Position numbers and translations under genes: made by a program
Source of the DNA: Gongronella butleri
Lineage: Eukaryota > Mucoromycota > Mucoromycetes > Mucorales > Cunninghamellaceae
Assembly (NCBI GenBank): GCA_025201375.1
Contig: JAIWZP010000059.1
Span: 1 to 64,000 of the forward strand
DNA length: 64,000 nucleotides
Direction of reading: 5' to 3'
Part shown: positions 9,066 to 19,900 of the stretch, one piece after another
How the letters are laid out: each line of letters starts with the position of its first letter
How positions within the stretch are numbered: position 1 is the stretch's first letter
The notes under the pieces: generated by a model
What the model was told of the DNA's origin: nothing
What the model saw: only the letters and a program-made list of their open reading frames with translations
The model's database searches: none

Positions 9066-12000
9066 TTATCGTCTTCCGCCTCGACCGCGACCACCACCAC
9101 CGCGACCGCCGCCGCCACGACCACCTCCGCGGCCACCTCCACGGCCACCACCGCGTCCACCACGGCCGCTGCCGCCGCCACCACCAAAGCCGCCGCCACG
9201 CGCGTTCTTGTCTCTGCGCTTTGTGGCCTGGACGCGTGCCTTTCGGATTTGGCTGGCGTCTTTGAGCTCGTTTTGGGTACCGCGGCCGCCTTCGCGACGT
9301 TGGCCGGTGGCCTGGCGTTTGTTGGAGCCAAAGGAGGATTTGGACTTTGTCTGGTCGTCATTGTCGTCGTCGCCACGCTTGCGCTTCTTGAGCTTGCGCT
9401 CATAATCGTGGGTGAGCGGGTCGAGATCCTTGGCTTCTTGCATCTTTGTGTGCTTGTAGCGGCGCTGCTGTGCCTTGAGGGCCGCCGAGGGCAATTCTTG
9501 CTCGCCCGTGCGCGGAAGAGCTGAGCGCGTCTTTTTCGCCCATTCATCGTAGCGGCCACTCTTGTACGACGCCGGAATCAACGCGCCACTCTCGGTACGG
9601 ATCATCTTTTTGTTGTCGCTGCCCACACCCGTGCCGCGCACGTACTTGTGCTTCTTGGCATCCCATCGAAGCTGCTTCTCCTTGTTGCGCATCGTGTCAT
9701 TCTCGTCTCCCAAAAGATCCAGCTGCGCACCAGATGCTTGCTCCGTGAAATTGCCACTGCGCATCGAATAACCACGCTCCGTGTCCGCGTCCTTTTGCGT
9801 GTACGAAATGTAAAACTCCTCATCGCGGTACGACGCACCTGAATAAAAATCAAAAAAAATGAAAAATGGTCAACAAAACCGCGTTTTTTTCTTCCATTTT
9901 CCCACTTTTTTTCCTTTTTTTTTTTTTTTACCCTTGTTGGCCGAGGACGCGGGCGTGCGGAAGGCGCGCTCAATTTCATCCTCATCGGCTTGCTCGACCA
10001 ATTCGGCGGCTGGAGCGTTGCTGGCTTCGGTTTTTGCCTTTTCCTTTGCTTGACGGACTTCCTCGTCCTCGGCAGCACCATCTTCGGCAACCTTCTTCTT
10101 GCGCAAGCCAATAAACGAGTCGACATTGGCGCGGCGCTCGCGCATGATGGCGGTGGCCTGATTCACCTTGCGCGTGCCGCGCTGGCCCACCTCAAAGATT
10201 GTCTCGGCAGGACGGAAGCCCGAAATCATGCTGATCATCGCCTGACGCTCTTGCTCCATGGCATTGTTGTTGTCCTCGTTCACTTTTGGAAATCATAAAA
10301 AAAGAAGTTGAGGGGTCAATGCCTCTTTTTTTTTTTTCTCCCAATCCATTGAGATTACTTACAGAGCAAGGGGTGGATTTCCTTGAAAGCTTTGCGCTTC
10401 ATGAGCTCCTTGGCACGCGCATAACTCTCGGGCGCGGCCTTTGGCTTGGTGCGCGAGTACAGCTTAAAAGCATTGTTGGCGGTCTTGACCTGGCCCTCGA
10501 GCTCTGCATCGGTGGCGACCTTGTCATTGAACCAACCGAGGTCGTCAAGCAACACATCCTTGGGGAATGTGCCGATGGACATGTCGTTGGTGTAATCGAT
10601 TTCTTCCTTTTCCGACCCAAGGACGAGCGGGCGCGTCAAAAAGAGCGCAAGATCGACCAAATAGGGCATTTCTTCGGCGGTGACCAGTGAGTACGCCCAG
10701 CCGCGGCGACCGGCACGTGCTGCACGGCCGACACGATGCACAAACACCTTGGACGACCCGGCAAAATCGTAATTGATCACGTTCTCGAGAATCGGGATAT
10801 CAATACCACGCGCCGCCACGTCCGTCACCACAAGCAAGTTCGTGTCGCCATTGCGGAACTTGCTGATCTGGATGTTGCGCGCCGTCTGGTCTAAGGAACC
10901 ATACACGTACGATACTTGGTACCCGAGCCCAAGCAGCAGACTCGACAAATATTCCACATGGTGCTTGGTCGACACAAAAAGAATCGTCTGCCGGTCCTCC
11001 TCCGTCGCAGAGCGTCGTTTGCCCTGCTTGGTCTTTACAGATTTCGGCAACTTGATCACATAGCGCAGCAAATACAACAATGCCGCCTCTTTTTCCACTT
11101 GTTGCACAGAGAAAAATGCCATCTAAAAATCGGTTAAGAAATCAAAAGGACACAGTGAATAAAAACAGAAAAAAAAATGTGGAGACGCGTCCGATCGCAC
11201 TTTTTTTCATTCTTTCATTTCTTACCTCCAGGTCCTGGCTGATCTTGGTATCGACGTCGAGACGGACAAGAGTGGGTTCCTGGAGACCGGCTTTGGCAAA
11301 ATCGACAAGTAACTTGGGCAGTGTGGCTGAAAAGAGCAATGTCTGACGATTGGAGGGGAAGCGCGACAGCAATTCGTGCAATTGGATGGCGAAACCCATC
11401 TCAAAAAGGCGATCGGCCTCATCAAACACGACGTATTCAACGGTGCGCAGGTCAAGTTCGGTCTCGACAACCAAGTGGAGAAGACGACCAGGCGTGGCAA
11501 TCAAAATGTCGGGATTGCTGGCCAGCATGCTGAATTGGTCGTCGAGCGAGTCGCCACCGACAAGCACACAGCTGCGCAAATCCGTGTATTTGCCCAATTC
11601 CTTGCACACCTTTTGTGTTTGCAGCGCCAATTCACGCGACGGCGACATGATCACGGCGCGCGCACCCACCTTGGCCGAGTGCTGCTTGAGACGCTCCAGC
11701 ATCGGGATCAAAAAGGCCGCCGTCTTGCCTGAACCTGTGCGCGCCATGCCAACAACATCCTTGCCCTCCATAATCACAGGAATACTCTTGCGCTGGATCG
11801 GTGTAGGCACATTGAAGCCCTTGTGCAGCACCGCCTTGAAGACATTGTGCGAGAGACCTAGAAAAAATTGAGGAAAAAAAGAGGAAAATGAGCAAAACAA
11901 GGAACAAAAAGAACAAAAGGAACAAAAAAGGAGCATTTCTCTCTATTTTTTTTTTTTTTTTTACCCATGGACTGGAAGCCGCCGGATTTCTTCTTTTTGC

Positions 12001-12505
12001 GATTGGCCTGGATGTTCTCATTTGTAATGAAGCGCTCCTCAGCATCGCTGTCCTCGTCTTCCACGTGGATGGCAGGCAAAACGGGTTGTTGTTGCTGCTG
12101 TTTCTTGTTTTTCGTCTTTTTGCCGTCGTCGTCATGGCCGTCAAGGTCGTCGGCGGCCGCCTGGGGCAGTGGCGCAGGCTTCTTGCCTTGCGACAGCGAC
12201 CCAAACATATCCATCTCGAGATCCGAGTCTTGATCGTTGTCCGAGTCGTATGCTTGCATGCCCAGACCACGGCCACTGCCGCTGCTCGGCACGATCTCAA
12301 AGTCCGAGTCCTCCTCGTCGTCCTTGTCCTTTTTGTTGTACTTGCGCTTCTGGTATTCCTTCTTCTTCAGCTTCGTGTTGGACATGGCTTTCTTCTCAAC
12401 AACATCGCCCTTGCCCTTGCCCTTGCTCGATCCATGTCCACCCGTGGCCTTGCCACCCGCAGACTTGACGTTGGTGGCCTTGCTCAGCGCTTTCTTCGCA
12501 GCCAT
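9066..12505 (-). CDS. DBP10: ATP-dependent RNA helicase Dbp10/DDX54
   Basis: Five exons (11965-12505, 11226-11857, 10363-11122, 9932-10282, 9066-9838) encode 1,018 residues. Dbp10 is a nucleolar DEAD-box helicase for 60S ribosomal subunit assembly. An acidic/basic N-terminal extension is followed by the Q motif (about 182-206, [11 protein letters not shown]), Walker A ARTGSGKT (219-226), DEAD (326-329), SAT (357-359), and [11 protein letters not shown] (520-530). The C-terminal region has DEEFYISY and [17 protein letters not shown], matching the Dbp10-specific C-terminal domain and separating it from Drs1/DDX27. The tail is a long RGG/GGGR array (from about 970), an RNA-binding element. The start was chosen as the first ATG of an open exon giving MAAKKALS. 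Long T/A runs sit in introns 1 and 4. Confidence 0.93.
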
Positions 12506-12744
12506 GCCAAACAATAAAAAAAAAAAAAGTAAAGAGAAGACGAAAAAGGAGCTGGAATAAAAAAAAAAATGCGCCCCTCGCAAATCCTTTCCACTGTAAA
12601 AAAGAAATGACAAGTTTAGACCAATCAAAGCATGCTATTTCGCCTCCTAAACTTACCTTTATTCAAGGTTGGAATCCTGTCATTATACTATGAAAAGGCC
12701 AAAAAAAAAGGGGGGACGGGTGAGGTGAGTGAGCTGCTGTGCAT

Positions 12745-12873: not shown

Positions 12874-14705
12874 TCAATTGGATGGAGGATTGAAAGTTAC
12901 AAACGTAAATTGGCCCGGAGGTGGAGGTCTTGGTCGTGTTGGTCGTGGCCGCGGCGGCGCGGCTGGCGGCGCGGCTGGTGGCGCGGCTGGAGGTGGTTGA
13001 GGCGGTGGCTCTGCTGTGGATGGGCGCGCAAATGCGCGAGGAAATGACCCATGCAGCACCATGGAGATGCCTTTTTGTAGGATGTTGCGGCTGGCGTTGC
13101 GATCGCGGTTCCAATATGTCCAGCAGGTTTTGCACCGGAGGACAGAATATAAACGTTTGATCGCTTCTTGGCCAGATGAAGGGGCCGGCTCCTGCTGCGG
13201 CGGTGACGGATCGTGTGGCGGTGGGGACGGCTCGTGTGGCGGTGGCTGTGTCTCTTGGGGTTGTAGTGGCTGCAGCTGTTGGTGCTGTGGGCATGAAGAT
13301 GAGCATCAATCGCGTGCTTTTCCCTTTTTTTTTTTCTTTTTTTTTTTTTTTTGACGTACCTGGAAAGCATCAATCAAATTCTGCATGCGCTGGTGGTGTA
13401 GCAAATCCGACATTTCTTGCTCAAAGTCGTGCAAGGTACACTGGCGCTCTTGGAATTGCCCAAATGACATTGATTTGCGCAGAAGCCTGTGTTGGTGAAC
13501 TTGAGCCGCTGATTCGAGAAGCAAATGATCCATGTCTGTGCCGTCTTGCACTTGCTGTAGCTGGCCTTGCTGCAGTTGCAAATGCTCTGTGTGCTGGCGC
13601 TGCAAGAGGCTGCGGTATTCAAGGTCTTGCCGATCGAGCAGCTTGTCGAATTCACCACCCTGATAATCCATTAACACATTCACCTGATCATCATAGTGCT
13701 GGTGGAGCCATGGAGCTTCTCGGGGCATTGGTTGTTGGGTTGGGGCCGAGCCGGATGACGCAGACGCGCGATGCGGGACTGAGAGATCGACTGACACGTG
13801 CTCAAGCGTGCGCTGCTTGCAACAAGAGCAAACTTGAGACGTGAGATACTCGTCGATTTCGACGAATAAGAGGCGGTGTTGGTTGGCGGCTTCCTTGAAA
13901 AGCTTTTTCACTCGCTTTGGGAGGCCGGCTTGGGTGGATGAGCCGCGAAATACGCTCTCGCCCAGCTTGGCATCGCCAAAAAAGATACATGGCAGGCGTG
14001 CGTCGGAGGCGGTTGGCGCAGCTCGCCATTTTTGGCCCCTAAAAAGAAGAACATGTCAATGTGGGTCTTTTTTTCCATTTTTTCCATTTTTTTTTTTTTT
14101 TTTTTTACCTTGGGATGGGGTCAATATGGCCCGGCACAGTGGTGGGCGGGTTGATGAATTGGTTGACGATGGATGCGTCGGCCTTGTAGCGCATTCGTGA
14201 CACGTTAAACCGTCCTCGATTGACGCGCAAAGTATAAAATTGCAGGAGAGCGTTCAAATGTTGAGCCAGATAGGCCAAGTAGCGACTGAGAGCTGCGATC
14301 GAGACGGTGCGTGTGGTGGGGATGTTGCTCTCGATTTTCTTGATGCCATGCTTTTTCCTGATGCTGTCCAGCTCGCGACCCCATTGCCGTGCAGGTGCCA
14401 TGTACGATGCGCATGACATTTTCCGAAATTGATGAGGATGTTTCATGGGGGAGACATCCATCGTGCAACCATCCGCGGCCGAGACCAAATCGCGCTCGCC
14501 GGGGTCCAACCCCCACACATGGAAGTAAGGGAGATGCCAAGGTTCAAGGTCTGCAATTTCCAAGTGAGGGAACGTTTCTTGGGGGCGCGATGCTTTGGCG
14601 TATTGCATGCAAACTTTGTAGCCGTCTGTCGTGCAAATGTGTCGTGATGCCAAGTGAGGGGATTGTCTTGAAGGGGGGGGGGAAAAAGAGGCATGAGTTG
14701 TCCAC

Positions 14706-14740
<35 letters not shown>

Positions 14741-15853
14741 TGTGTGTTTTACCCTGCCAGGGCGCCGGGTCGGACGAGGACATCTTGGCGGATGACGTTT
14801 TCATAGGCGGCTTCCGTACGCGCTATTCTCTCGCCGGCCGCGGACATAATAGTTGGCATCGAATGCGCGTCCAGGGTGATGTGTGTACGTCTCATTGAAG
14901 ATGTGGGTGACGCGCCATATACTTTGCAGCGCTTGGTAGCGGGAGCGGGCGGAAAATGACATCGGGCGATCATATGCGGGTCGTGAGAGGCCCATTCTTG
15001 GCAGCGGCGCGACCAATACAACTCCTTGCGTGCCTTTTTGACGCTGGCTTGGATGGCATTCAGGGTGCCGACGCCGAGATGGTGCCACTTGCTTGTGTCA
15101 AAGGGCGGATGATCGAGTGCATCGCGGTCGTTGGCTGCTTGCACCATCGCTTTCGCAAGGCGTCTCTGCTGGCTACGGTTTAACACCACACCAATCTTTT
15201 TGATGGCCCTGTGAGCCCATGAGCGCGTGGTCTCGGTGCTGTACGGGTGGAGAGCGGCATTCGAACGCTCGGCGACATGGTCGAGCAACAACAGGTATTG
15301 ATGAAACACCTCTCGGAAGCGGCTGATGGTCGCCAAAGAGATTTTGCTGTACGCGGGGATGGCGACGCTTGCACCACGCGCAATGGCCAGCAAATCGTCT
15401 CTGGTCGTCGAATCGCCCCAATGTCGGCACCGCGCCCAAATCTGCATCGCTTCTTCTCTCACCGGGATGCCGTCGCGACGAAATGGAGAATTGACCAAGG
15501 TTATCACAGCCTGCATAGATGCCGTGTCGGCACTCAATGCCGTGCGCAACGCATCCACGGCTGCATTGACTTGTTCCACAGGCAGATCGTCGTCAATCGT
15601 AGGCATATTGGACTCCTCGTCGATGTCGAACCTTTCAAACAGCAGCGCTTTGACAATATTGAACGCCTTTCCCTTCTTGATCGTCTAAAATGAACGAGAG
15701 AGGGCGTGAGTGCGACCTCTTTTTTTTTCTTTTTCTTTTTCTTTTTTTTTTTTCTTTTTCTTCTTTTTTTTTTTCTTTTTCTTCTTCTCTTTTTTTTTTT
15801 TTTTTTTTTTTTTCTTTTTCTTCTTCTCTTTTTTTTTTTTTTTTTTTTCTTTT

Positions 15854-15915
<62 letters not shown>

Positions 15916-16946
15916 GGAATGTCATTTTGTAGCTGATGGCACATGAACGAGGCGAGGCGCTGGAAGAAACATTCTGTGACGAAATTGGATAAGCATGTTG
16001 AGAGGTCCGCATTCTGGTAATTAAGCACTGCAAAGTGCTCCAGGTGGCCGTGTGGACTGGAGATCGTGAGGGTTGGGTATTGTGCCATGAAATTCTCAAA
16101 GAGAGCCGCGATCCGGGGCCGATGCATGCCGAGAATCGTCTCGTCCGTCATTTGCTTTCGTAGAATGAGTTGTTGCACGCCGTGTTGAAATTCTTTTGTG
16201 TAAAGGCATGGTGGAAGCGGCTGCATCGCCTCGAATTGGGCCACGACGTAAAAATTGACAAACGCCAGCTTCACCACGCGCATCGCTGTCGCGAAGCAAC
16301 CAGTCTCGCGAATAGCTGACATCACCCCATCCTTGACGGCACCCTCCAAGTTCAAGACGCTGCTTAGCTTGCCAACACGCGTCACCGTGTGAAACTTGGT
16401 GCCAATCAAATCGGCCAATCGCTGCGCCTTCGTGGCACCACGATTGTACTTCTTTGGCTGCTTTTGCTGCATCGCGCGTCGTGCGTCCTTCCGGCCCTGC
16501 TTTTTTGCTCGCTTGGTGGCCACGGATTGCCTGCCTAGCACGCGGCGCTGCGTGTTGACAAGATGACCGGTGCTGGACCCTAAAAAAAAAAAAAAAAAGG
16601 CGTGTTGGTCTCTGAGGCACGCGCCCACCTCGTGCTCTTCACATGTATACTCGTCACCACCCCTCCTTTTCGACATGTATCTTTGTAACACACCCTTCAT
16701 ACCTTCACCTGGGTCGTCGTCGTCGTCATTGTCTTCGTCGTCTTCGTCGTCAGCTGCTTCTTGTTCCGCAAGTTCCTCTTATTAATGCACAAAACAAAGC
16801 AAAATAGGCTTTCAATTCGCGTCTGCGTGACGTGTATTGTCTTTTTTTTGCTTACGCTCGTGCTTTTTCTTATACCGCAAGTATTGCGATTGTTGTCTTG
16901 GCGTCAGGCCATCGAAATTTGTACGATTAAAAGGGGGTGTAAACAT
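12874..16946 (-). CDS. Fanzor-type RNA-guided nuclease (eukaryotic TnpB homologue)
   Basis: Seven exons on the minus strand (16856-16946, about 16703-16777, 15915-16579, 14753-15684, 14109-14666, 13360-14038, 12874-13284) join in phase to about 1,136 residues. Fanzors are transposon-linked relatives of TnpB that cut DNA using an RNA guide. The RuvC core is visible. RuvC-I is HVWGLDPGERDLVSAADG (Asp642). FFGDAK (about 793) and VEIDEYLTSQVCSCC (Glu837 in the DEY motif, then Cys844/Cys847) follow, and the last block is LRCKTCWTYWNRDRNASRNI (Cys1051/Cys1054, Asp1061 of RuvC-III). The Glu in DEY fits the shifted catalytic glutamate reported for Fanzors. The two CxxC halves of the zinc ribbon are about 203 residues apart, separated by a Gln-rich then Pro-rich insert. 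The tail is Pro/Ala-rich. The exon 2 donor is ambiguous (16703 or 16709, both in phase). No terminal repeats bounding a transposon were found. All key catalytic residues look intact. Confidence 0.85.
15721..15912. repeat. Near-pure T/C tract filling a Fanzor intron
   Basis: About 190 bp of T interrupted only by C, ending with 57 consecutive T (15856-15912). On the gene strand it is a poly-purine A/G run starting directly after the GT donor of intron 3 (15914-15685), so most of that intron is one purine tract. Sub-blocks of the type CTTTTTCTTCTTCTCT recur, suggesting slippage expansion. Confidence 0.9.
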
Positions 16947-19900
16947 GGCGGTTGAGATTGGGTGAATGAAAAGAAAGAACAAACAAAAAAAAAACGCGCC
17001 TTCCGAAAAAAAAAACACGGCCTTAATCCCGTGCCTGTCGGTCAATTAAAATCAGAGCCCGCCACTTATGACACAATCCATTTCCACACAAAAAAAAAAG
17101 AGATGGTGTGAGCAAGCGAAATGGAAAAGAAACGAGCGCGACGCGATAAGTGCGCTCTTGTGTCAGCCTAGAGACGTAATTTATTGTCAATCAAGGTGGA
17201 ACAGAAAAAAAAGAGAGCGAGAAAAAAAGAGAAAAGAAGAAAAAAATGGGAGAGAAAAAGGTAGAGAGAAAACGCCAAAATGGTGAGGCGAAAGAAGCCC
17301 TGTGCCAAAGTGCCCACCCTTGCAAATTTGGGCACCCCAGGGGCAAGTTGAATGGGAAATGCTTAGACAATTATAAGTTTTAGAAGAAATAATAATGACA
17401 GCCCACCAACGAGACACTGCAACAGCACGAAATGCATCCCATCGTGAAACGGCGCGCTAGAAAATCTGATCGGGACGCGACGCGCAAGCATGTTACTCGT
17501 CATTGGAGCTCGTCATCAGCAAATCAAACTTTAGTCGTGGCAAGCGTCCAAAATCAAAATCGAAAATTTGGGTTCCCAGAATTGCGCCAAACTCGCACAC
17601 AAGACAAAACACATGAAGAAACCACGAAAAACGACAAAAAGGAGATCGATCCGATTGCTCGGTGATTTTGGATTAAATTTCAACAACGAATTGCACGGGA
17701 AAAACGCGCTGATAGTGCCGCACTGAGGCGCCCAATAGCAAGAGGGGTACCAGATGCATTGATTTGAAAAGGAACAGACGCGTGTCACTCGATGCTTGAC
17801 GCGGTTTTTCACGCGTCGAAAATTGTCTATGAATTTAAAATCGCGTCGAACTTGCCCAAAAATGTCACTTTTTCAGAGATCACGCATGTCATCATACGCA
17901 GCGAGCCTTACTCTTGCTGGTGGTACATATTTCGTCAAGATACAGACACTAAATTTTTCCTTGAAGCGAAAAAATGGGACAAATTGCATTTTACGCTACA
18001 ACTAACCGATGGACCTCCAGGTTTTGGTGCCATTTTATCGGTAAACAAAGGGCCCTCCACCATGTAGTGAGATTGGCGTGGTGATCTGACGACCTAAATG
18101 TCACCATTTTCCGGAGGTCGACTGCACCCCTTGGAAATTTCGTGGTTTTTGAAAATAGACCTTGCGCCCCAGCCAGTGGCAGCAACGCGCTGAGTGTGGG
18201 CTCATTTGAAAGAGAAAGCGTGCAATTCACAGGTGAAAGCAGTTTCTTTCTAGTAGATTGTAAAACGATGGACAAAAGGCTATGATACAATAAAAGCGTC
18301 TTAATAGAAACATTGTCGACAACAACCTGATCGATCGCCAGTTTCACGGCACAGCAGGCGGGTAACACAAGCTCAATACACATGGAATAAGATTGATGCG
18401 TATTGGATCACGCATTGCTTGGCAATGTGCCTGCCTAAACTTCAAAGGTGTTCCAATTCGAGATCGCTCTCGCTAAAGTTATCCGATTTCTGTCAAATTT
18501 GAACCGGTTGTCCTTTGCAGACATCGAAAGCGATACAAAGTTAAAAGGCTTTAATTGTCGCATGGGAAAAGAAGATGCTCTACAAACCCCAAATTTGCAG
18601 AGTATATTGTATTACAGTATGATCCGGGAATGTTGACTCGCGGATAAATGTACTGCTTGATGGACGCAAAAGATAAAAAAAAAATAGGCTCGAATTTGAT
18701 GTCAATAGATAAGGCCAAAAACAAAAGCAAAATATATAATAATATGAACAGCCATGATGTGTGTTTTCGCTTATTTGTAAAATGACATGCGCAAACCGAA
18801 CGACCGGATACATGATCAGCGTACACTATTAAAAAATCAGACTTTGCATGTCGGGACCCAATGAGCACAATGCCATCAAACAGGGAGAAAATAAGAAAAC
18901 CCCAACCATTTTATAATATCCTTTTTTCCATGTTAGCCGGTTGAGCCGTGATCAACAGGCCCGCTGAGCAAAATATAACACACAATGGCACGTCGCCAGG
19001 GCTCCCCCCTCCTCCTTCGTGTAGACAAACTTCCGGGCTGAACGGCTAGTAGGATGCGGCCGCTTTTTTTTGTTTTTTACCAAAACGAGTCAAAACAACT
19101 CATTTTTTCTATCAATAATGGGTTGATTGTTCTGCACAATGACTTTGAATGCCGCTCGTTGCATTTTTTTTTTGCAAAAATTATTGTTGCAATGGCGATT
19201 TTTTTTCCGTCACGCTTGCCTACCTGCAGCGTGACCAAGTGCTTGCATGTTGACGCGTGCGCTCTTTTCTCAATTAGGAAAAGAAGGCACAATTTTTGTG
19301 GTCCCGCAGACACATTAGGATTTTCGGGAAATGTGGCCAATCAACAAATTGATGCCCTAATTTAGGCAAGTTTCTCCCGTGTTTTTTTAACGTGTTTGAG
19401 CCTGTCAAGTCGGAGCTTAAAATGTGCAAAAGGCTTTTTCAATTCAACGCACTGCGCCCCTCAGCTGTTCCTCGTCCCTGTGTGTTATGTAATCGCGTGA
19501 ATGCAAAGGTCCACGCCAATTATACGGCAAAAAGGAAACCCGCTGATAGTCATTTAAAGAGAATCGAATTTCTTCTTTTTTTGCCGCGCAAAATAGCCAT
19601 TTTCGCGAATATTCACATAGCAGTGCCCGAGGTGGCGCGACGCGTCCTCGCGTGTTGAAACGCAATGCACAAATTTTTGGATCAAAACGCTCTTTTCGCA
19701 GCCAATGATAACTAAAAATGTCAATATTGCCCCCAAAACCAATGAAAAGGCCCTTTTTTATCGTTTCTTTTATGATAATCCGAGTCGCAGCGCTCCTGGC
19801 CTATTCATTGACGTAGCTGCAGTCCTCAAGCTTTTTAATGGGCTCACACAAATATTTCTGCGATGACCAGATCAGGCGAATTCAAAGAAATTCAAGAAAA

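Follow-up and report, generated by a model that had tools for sequence, protein, structure and literature searches.

A Fanzor1 gene as probable cargo of a non-autonomous, CACTA-like DNA transposon in Gongronella butleri

Is the TnpB-like nuclease gene on the minus strand of Gongronella butleri contig JAIWZP010000059.1, at 16946 to 12874 of the 64,000-nucleotide stretch analysed here (the window), still recognisable as a passenger of mobile DNA, or has it been taken over by its host? The original prediction had described a single, possibly active Fanzor gene without visible transposon ends, and had proposed a profile search and a search for further copies in the genome. Based on the evidence collected in this study, the gene is best understood as encoding a Fanzor1, a TnpB relative of eukaryotes, and as the cargo of a non-autonomous DNA transposon that has CAC...GTG ends and 3-bp target-site duplications (TSDs) and for which the transposase would be supplied in trans; we assign this reading a probability of about 0.85. 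The window copy would go back to one old insertion immediately 5' of a DBP10-like helicase gene, and another repeat would have split the element afterwards.

As predicted, the minus strand holds seven exons that can be spliced without loss of frame (3411 nt; 1136 codons plus stop, without internal stop or frameshift), and all six introns, 70-230 nt long, are of the GT-AG type. Exon 1 (16856..16946) opens with the ATG at 16946 and is followed by the acidic exon 2 (16703..16777), in which a 6-nt alternative donor would leave 16709-16777, the protein thus comprising 1134 or 1136 residues; weak alternative splice choices that keep the frame are also present at exons 6 and 7. By alignment, exon 3 (15915..16579) encodes the N-terminal region, putatively REC, and exon 4 (14753..15684) the probable REC/WED region. 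The TDG motif and RuvC-I are found in exon 5 (14109..14666), the alternative glutamate, the first CxxC and the start of an insert in exon 6 (13360..14038), and the end of that insert, the second CxxC, RuvC-III, a Pro/Ala-rich tail and the stop in exon 7 (12874..13284). Long homopolymer runs of A or T (poly-T as read on the plus strand) are a feature of the Fanzor coding introns, for instance 15685-15914, and a long A run also opens the first intron of the DBP10 gene.

The identity of the protein follows from its motifs. The catalytic triad is placed at D642 (codon 14504-14506) in GLDPGER, E837 (13849-13851) in DEYLTSQVCSCC and D1061 (13102-13104) in CKTC-WTYWNRD, with CxxC pairs at 844-847 (CSCC) and 1051-1054 (CKTC). 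Exactly six residues separate E837 from C844, and RuvC-I reads DPG, as in the Fanzor fingerprint given in PMC10711439 (a specific glutamate six residues ahead of the first CxxC, together with DPG). The Fanzor1 pattern D-X(125,275)-[TS][TS]xx-[C4 finger]-X(5,50)-RD, taken from PMC3627910, is matched by D642, by TSQV followed by CSCC, and by CKTC, five residues and RD, whereby the pattern as written does not exclude the 203 residues that lie inside the finger. A TDG, described in PMC10711439 as a motif of the WED domain, occurs at residues 601-603, which would place these within that domain; the same motif is found in the paralogs labelled C23, C16, C15, C1a and C39a. The Pfam family PF07282 matches the window protein at 6.7e-8, its 33 bits exceeding the cut-off of 26.3, and the match is therefore not due to chance. 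Profile A3, built from three long proteins encoded in the genome, among them the window protein, finds GtFanzor1 as its best match in the PDB (6.5e-6), followed by the TnpB-like L79 (2e-4) and SpuFanzor1 (3.3e-4); in its alignment, the window piece shares 39% identity with C23 and 28% with C16. A paralog alignment of eight sequences runs through the entire block of alternative glutamate, both CxxC pairs and RD. The predicted motifs are confirmed, and the reading as a Fanzor-type relative of TnpB with an intact D-E-D site is supported.

Several results weigh on the other side of this assignment. A C-terminal profile of nine pieces (A2) ranks LaTranC first, then L79 and several bacterial chains of the OrfB/Cas12f (OrfB/TnpB) type, with GtFanzor1 ninth (6.2e-5). 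The window protein alone returned only chance matches from the PDB with phmmer, and searches of protein databases yielded no relative at E 1e-3, the 7999 candidates that shared most words being scored in each search. The RuvC-I piece of the C23 paralog, used alone, had no PDB match either. All nine members of A2 matched the NCBIfam model guided_TnpB at E 0.01 or better, and the sole member with bits shown (member 1) lay below its cut-off. Since A2 and A3 rank the PDB matches differently, the assignment to Fanzor1 is taken from the fingerprint motifs more than from profile ranking; read from sequence in this way, the window gene is a Fanzor1, and its protein looks intact.

The gene does not stand alone. 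The genome (33.0 Mb, 110 contigs) contains 20 places matching PF07282, of which 17 exceed the cut-off on their own, two (C2 and C32) do so only with neighbours in frame, and one (C12) stays below. The window copy is absent from these 20, presumably because its zinc finger is split. The weak matches with stops at C2:489573 and C32:248211 lie in frames of about 800 residues, unlike the multi-exon Fanzors described here. Searched with the window protein, the genome returned 48 exon-scale matches including the gene's own exons, with 41 of 63 candidates scored; among these, the nearest by identity (55-61%) are fragments at C13 and C72, with stops inside the matches, and the next nearest are C18 and C23. 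The proposed search for copies uncovered a family with members that moved recently: C18 and C23 share 98% identity across 3.88 kb, and further pairs stand at 95% (C1/C75), 92% (C16/C24) and 91% (C55/C39a). In the C24 copy (C24:87540-90788), an internal deletion joins a C16-type 5' region to the copy's last exons. Differences at codon positions 1/2/3 amount to 17/18/37 for C1a-C75, 187/142/429 for C1a-C55, 194/144/424 for C1a-C39a and 5/3/10 for C23-C18, with one stop codon each in C55 and C39a in this alignment. The third-position excess between these paralogs, a comparison outside which the window copy stands, therefore suggests purifying selection on the Fanzor family.

The transposon ends reported as missing can be read at 12592 and 19394. 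The right end (...TTTTTTACAGTG) closes a conserved 3' sequence, AATAAAGGTAAGTTTAGGA...ACAGTG (12592..12663, minus strand), which emerged from paralog comparison and is a candidate guide-RNA scaffold region. The 19-nt motif AATAAAGGTAAGTTTAGGA, searched with up to two mismatches, has three matches in the genome, all of them Fanzors (window, C18, C23), and its reversed control has none. A general genomic repeat as the source of this motif was ruled out by the same three matches, together with a search using the right-end DNA that returned only itself. For the left end, the window offers two candidates, between which homology to the C16 element decides: the minus strand from 19394 (CACGTTAAAAAAACACGGG...) aligns with that element, the likeness beginning exactly at CAC. 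The 110 bases of this terminus (19285..19394) have four matches in the genome, every one on the 5' side of a Fanzor locus (window, C68, C16, C39). The C18 and C23 elements have ends CACAGCAAAAAATG... and ...CTGCAGTG with TSDs AGA and ATA; the shorter left end was favoured here over a slightly longer shared one because the duplications then match at both copies, and GCTTC is common to both left flanks ahead of the duplication. A joined pattern mixing features of different families gave no match in the genome.

In five of the eight elements with both ends read, the 3-bp TSD is perfect (AGA, ATA, GAT, TAG, AAC), for which simple arithmetic at 1/64 each gives a chance of about 5e-8. A cytosine directly precedes the duplication in all six sites with two or three matching bases and a thymine in the other two, an observation that, at six sites, serves as a lead only. 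CAC...GTG termini and 3-bp TSDs are traits of the EnSpm/CACTA superfamily, and elements that combine them are, on the sequence of their ends, CACTA-like. By the same termini and TSDs, the Fanzor appears to be carried by a eukaryotic transposon other than IS607, a genome-wide search for serine recombinases not having been made.

The elements look non-autonomous, and several results count against the proposed reading. PF02992, the CACTA transposase family, has nine places in the genome, eight over the cut-off, yet none of the nine is near a listed Fanzor match. In a partial look, 10 of the 24 frames listed for four elements were compared with Pfam and none of the 10 gave a transposase; the frames come from the C18 element and from the 5' portions of three others, those of the window, C16 and C68 (1.6 kb only for the last). 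The only CACTA family with its left end read starts CACCGGGG, unlike the Fanzor elements. Because no PF02992 transposase accompanies the Fanzors or has matching ends, the designation is kept at "CACTA-like". TSDs add to these points: that of the window copy agrees at only two of three bases (left flank AAA, 19395..19397; right flank GAA, 12589..12591), C55 agrees at one (TAC/TCA) and C16 at none (TTT/CAG), the C55 right end being mutated. As an observation apart, the PF02992 elements at C53:92261 and C62:184371 are 99.8% identical over 3.2 kb, with the left end CACCGGGGTAAATGG, the C62 copy extending beyond its contig.

The left part of the window element was hidden because a copy of a high-copy repeat of about 2 kb is nested in it (approximately 17250..19271), between the left end and the gene, beginning about 300 bp upstream of the Fanzor ATG. 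This repeat has 41 matches in the genome from 40 scored of 971 candidates and is 81-82% identical to the two copies compared, one end being inverted between copies. The sequence at 17.5-18.2 kb, tried as part of the Fanzor unit, was ruled out as such, being this genome-wide repeat. Pieces related to it also occur near several other Fanzor loci. The repeat could have severed the promoter, in which case the gene would be dead and its frame intact merely from too little time. We consider this doubtful: 1136 codons have remained free of stops and frameshifts, the six introns are canonical, and about 300 bp of upstream sequence are still present.

At the other end of the element, the DBP10-like DEAD-box helicase gene (10355..12505, minus strand, by gene model and protein matches) has its ATG (12505) only 87 bp past the right terminus, on the same strand as the Fanzor. 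Its three best matches among the best 120 listed are from Halteromyces, Chlamydoabsidia and Absidia, at 78-79% identity, which on this one gene makes a mucoralean host probable. The proximity to the helicase, together with the imperfect TSD, the interruption by the nested repeat, and the fact that the gene is single in its subfamily and has a frame of 1136 intact codons (the C13 and C72 relatives being fragments whose matches contain stops), could point to a domesticated Fanzor, deprived of mobility and kept by the host, for example for regulation of its neighbour or for defence. Both transposon ends are still recognisable, however, and limited searches showed no orthologue in other species that would indicate long constraint, so that domestication is judged distinctly improbable. 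Probably old and no longer able to move, the window copy is understood as a member of the cargo family described above.

Between the Fanzor stop and the right terminus, a guide RNA would be expected to arise; with it the nuclease would cleave DNA and thereby help to keep the transposon in copy. Several families share a core resembling GGGGAGCATAGCAA in this interval, which suits a guide-RNA scaffold; in the window and in C18 the core is less distinct. The structural evidence goes against this part of the proposal: RNAalifold on eight paralog 3' regions returned no shared pairs and no consensus structure, Rfam gave no match over the gathering score in the window, and the 3' piece of the window is not unusually stable (z -0.14).

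The right end moreover resembles an intron. In the window, a candidate terminal intron of 63 nt (12594..12656, minus strand, by splice motifs) reads G/GTAAGT ... ACAG/TG, the slashes marking its borders, and across loci the corresponding span is 61-126 nt. Of 18 loci with the 3' side read, the terminus is visible in 15 (C47, C28 and C23b were not placeable), and YAG stands at the terminus in 14 of these, among them C55, where the last bases are changed. When the eight left ends are read outward (reverse complement), YAG occurs at none of them and AAG at two. GTAAG is found between stop and terminus in 10 of the 11 loci with the stop located, and GTAAA in the other (C39b), 17-217 nt past the stop, the C47 terminus in this count being a guess; with chances of 0.05-0.19 per locus, our own arithmetic and grouping put coincidence over six lineages at roughly 5e-7 to 5e-6. 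A short yTnAy motif lies 19-35 nt ahead of the end in all ten loci tested, and four of the six introns of the window gene have it between -19 and -31; it overlaps a sub-terminal ATTGG motif found at both element ends. GTAAG and the CTNAC-like motif, which might pair as a stem, both hardly vary. The right end may thus function as an acceptor in splicing, with the guide-RNA region as the intron, which would make sense because TnpB cuts its guide RNA from its own mRNA, as stated in PMC10278001. Counter to this, C1b has CTG and no AG, and YAG/TG with a T-run is also the typical look of CACTA-like termini. We put the idea forward tentatively and consider it unlikely. If true, splicing would remove the guide scaffold from the Fanzor mRNA, and unspliced read-through, with the flank as guide, would yield the guide RNA: a eukaryotic answer to the bacterial conflict in which TnpB excises the guide from its own message. 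Transcripts of the window copy would in addition be joined by splicing to the 5' side of the adjoining helicase gene. Close to the Fanzor 3' end at C47 lies a 427-bp inverted repeat (L004 163-588, 758-1184) with arms 99.3% identical, possibly a young palindromic element.

An unusual part of the window protein is its zinc finger. The two CxxC pairs are separated by 203 residues, Gln-rich and then Pro-rich (13135..13818, with intron 6 inside), compared to 22-26 in eight paralogs; cysteines, glutamate and aspartate are all retained. In the paralogs C1a and C39a, low-complexity sequence rich in Ala occurs at another place, in a reading frame ahead of RuvC-I. Given the compact finger of the paralogs, the stretch might be, wholly or in part, an intron missed by the gene model: 18 of 63 donor-acceptor combinations near its borders preserve the frame, and pairing the donor GTGTCA with the acceptor CGCCGCAG or CGCAGCAG would remove 603-606 nt, so that 27 or 26 residues remain. 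None of the 18, however, uses a common donor (GTAAG, GTATG, GTAAA, GTACG, GTGAG), the implied intron of about 600 nt exceeds the 70-230 nt of the others, and the frame stays open before and after intron 6, the splice sites of which are good. A missed intron is therefore considered unlikely.

Lastly, comparison with known systems places the gene as ordinary in outline for its fungal order, but as an unusually large variant. Like GtFanzor1 (PDB 9cer) and SpuFanzor1 (8gkh), the first and third matches of the A3 profile, it has the same order of RuvC and zinc-finger elements; unlike them, it encodes 1136 residues with a long zinc-finger stretch and sits between CAC...GTG ends flanked by 3-bp TSDs. 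PMC11423790 gives 600-700 residues for most Fanzor1 proteins. The SpuFanzor1 guide RNA is made, according to PMC10432273, at the place that matches the conserved stop-to-right-end stretch here. PpFz1 of Parasitella parasitica, from the same order, is likewise a Fanzor1 with extra length in its nuclease half, an insert described in PMC11423790 as an FRI domain of about 100 residues in RuvC that binds cyclophilin; the stretch found here is instead Gln/Pro-rich and lies between the CxxC pairs. The PDB matches of profiles A2 and A3 include no chain under the name Parasitella. In a search outside which most subscription papers fall, no literature naming both Fanzor and CACTA was found, and Fanzor and EnSpm appear together in one published work, there as separate families. 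EnSpm/CACTA elements share with those described here the CAC...GTG termini and 3-bp TSDs, and their PF02992 transposases are present in this genome; they differ in that none lies near a listed Fanzor and that the one left end read is different. Mucoralean Fanzor1s on transposable elements have been known since 2013 from Mucor, Rhizopus and Phycomyces (Bao and Jurka, PMC3627910), with TSDs given there as 9 bp (MuDR-like), 11-12 bp and putatively 6 bp. To these our study adds a group of elements that carry Fanzor1 genes between CAC...GTG ends and have 3-bp TSDs, in which young pairs, largely intact frames and readable termini would enable a test, within one fungus, of whether Fanzor aids transposon survival after excision, and in which the intron-like right end suggests a testable route from a single transcript to both nuclease mRNA and guide RNA.

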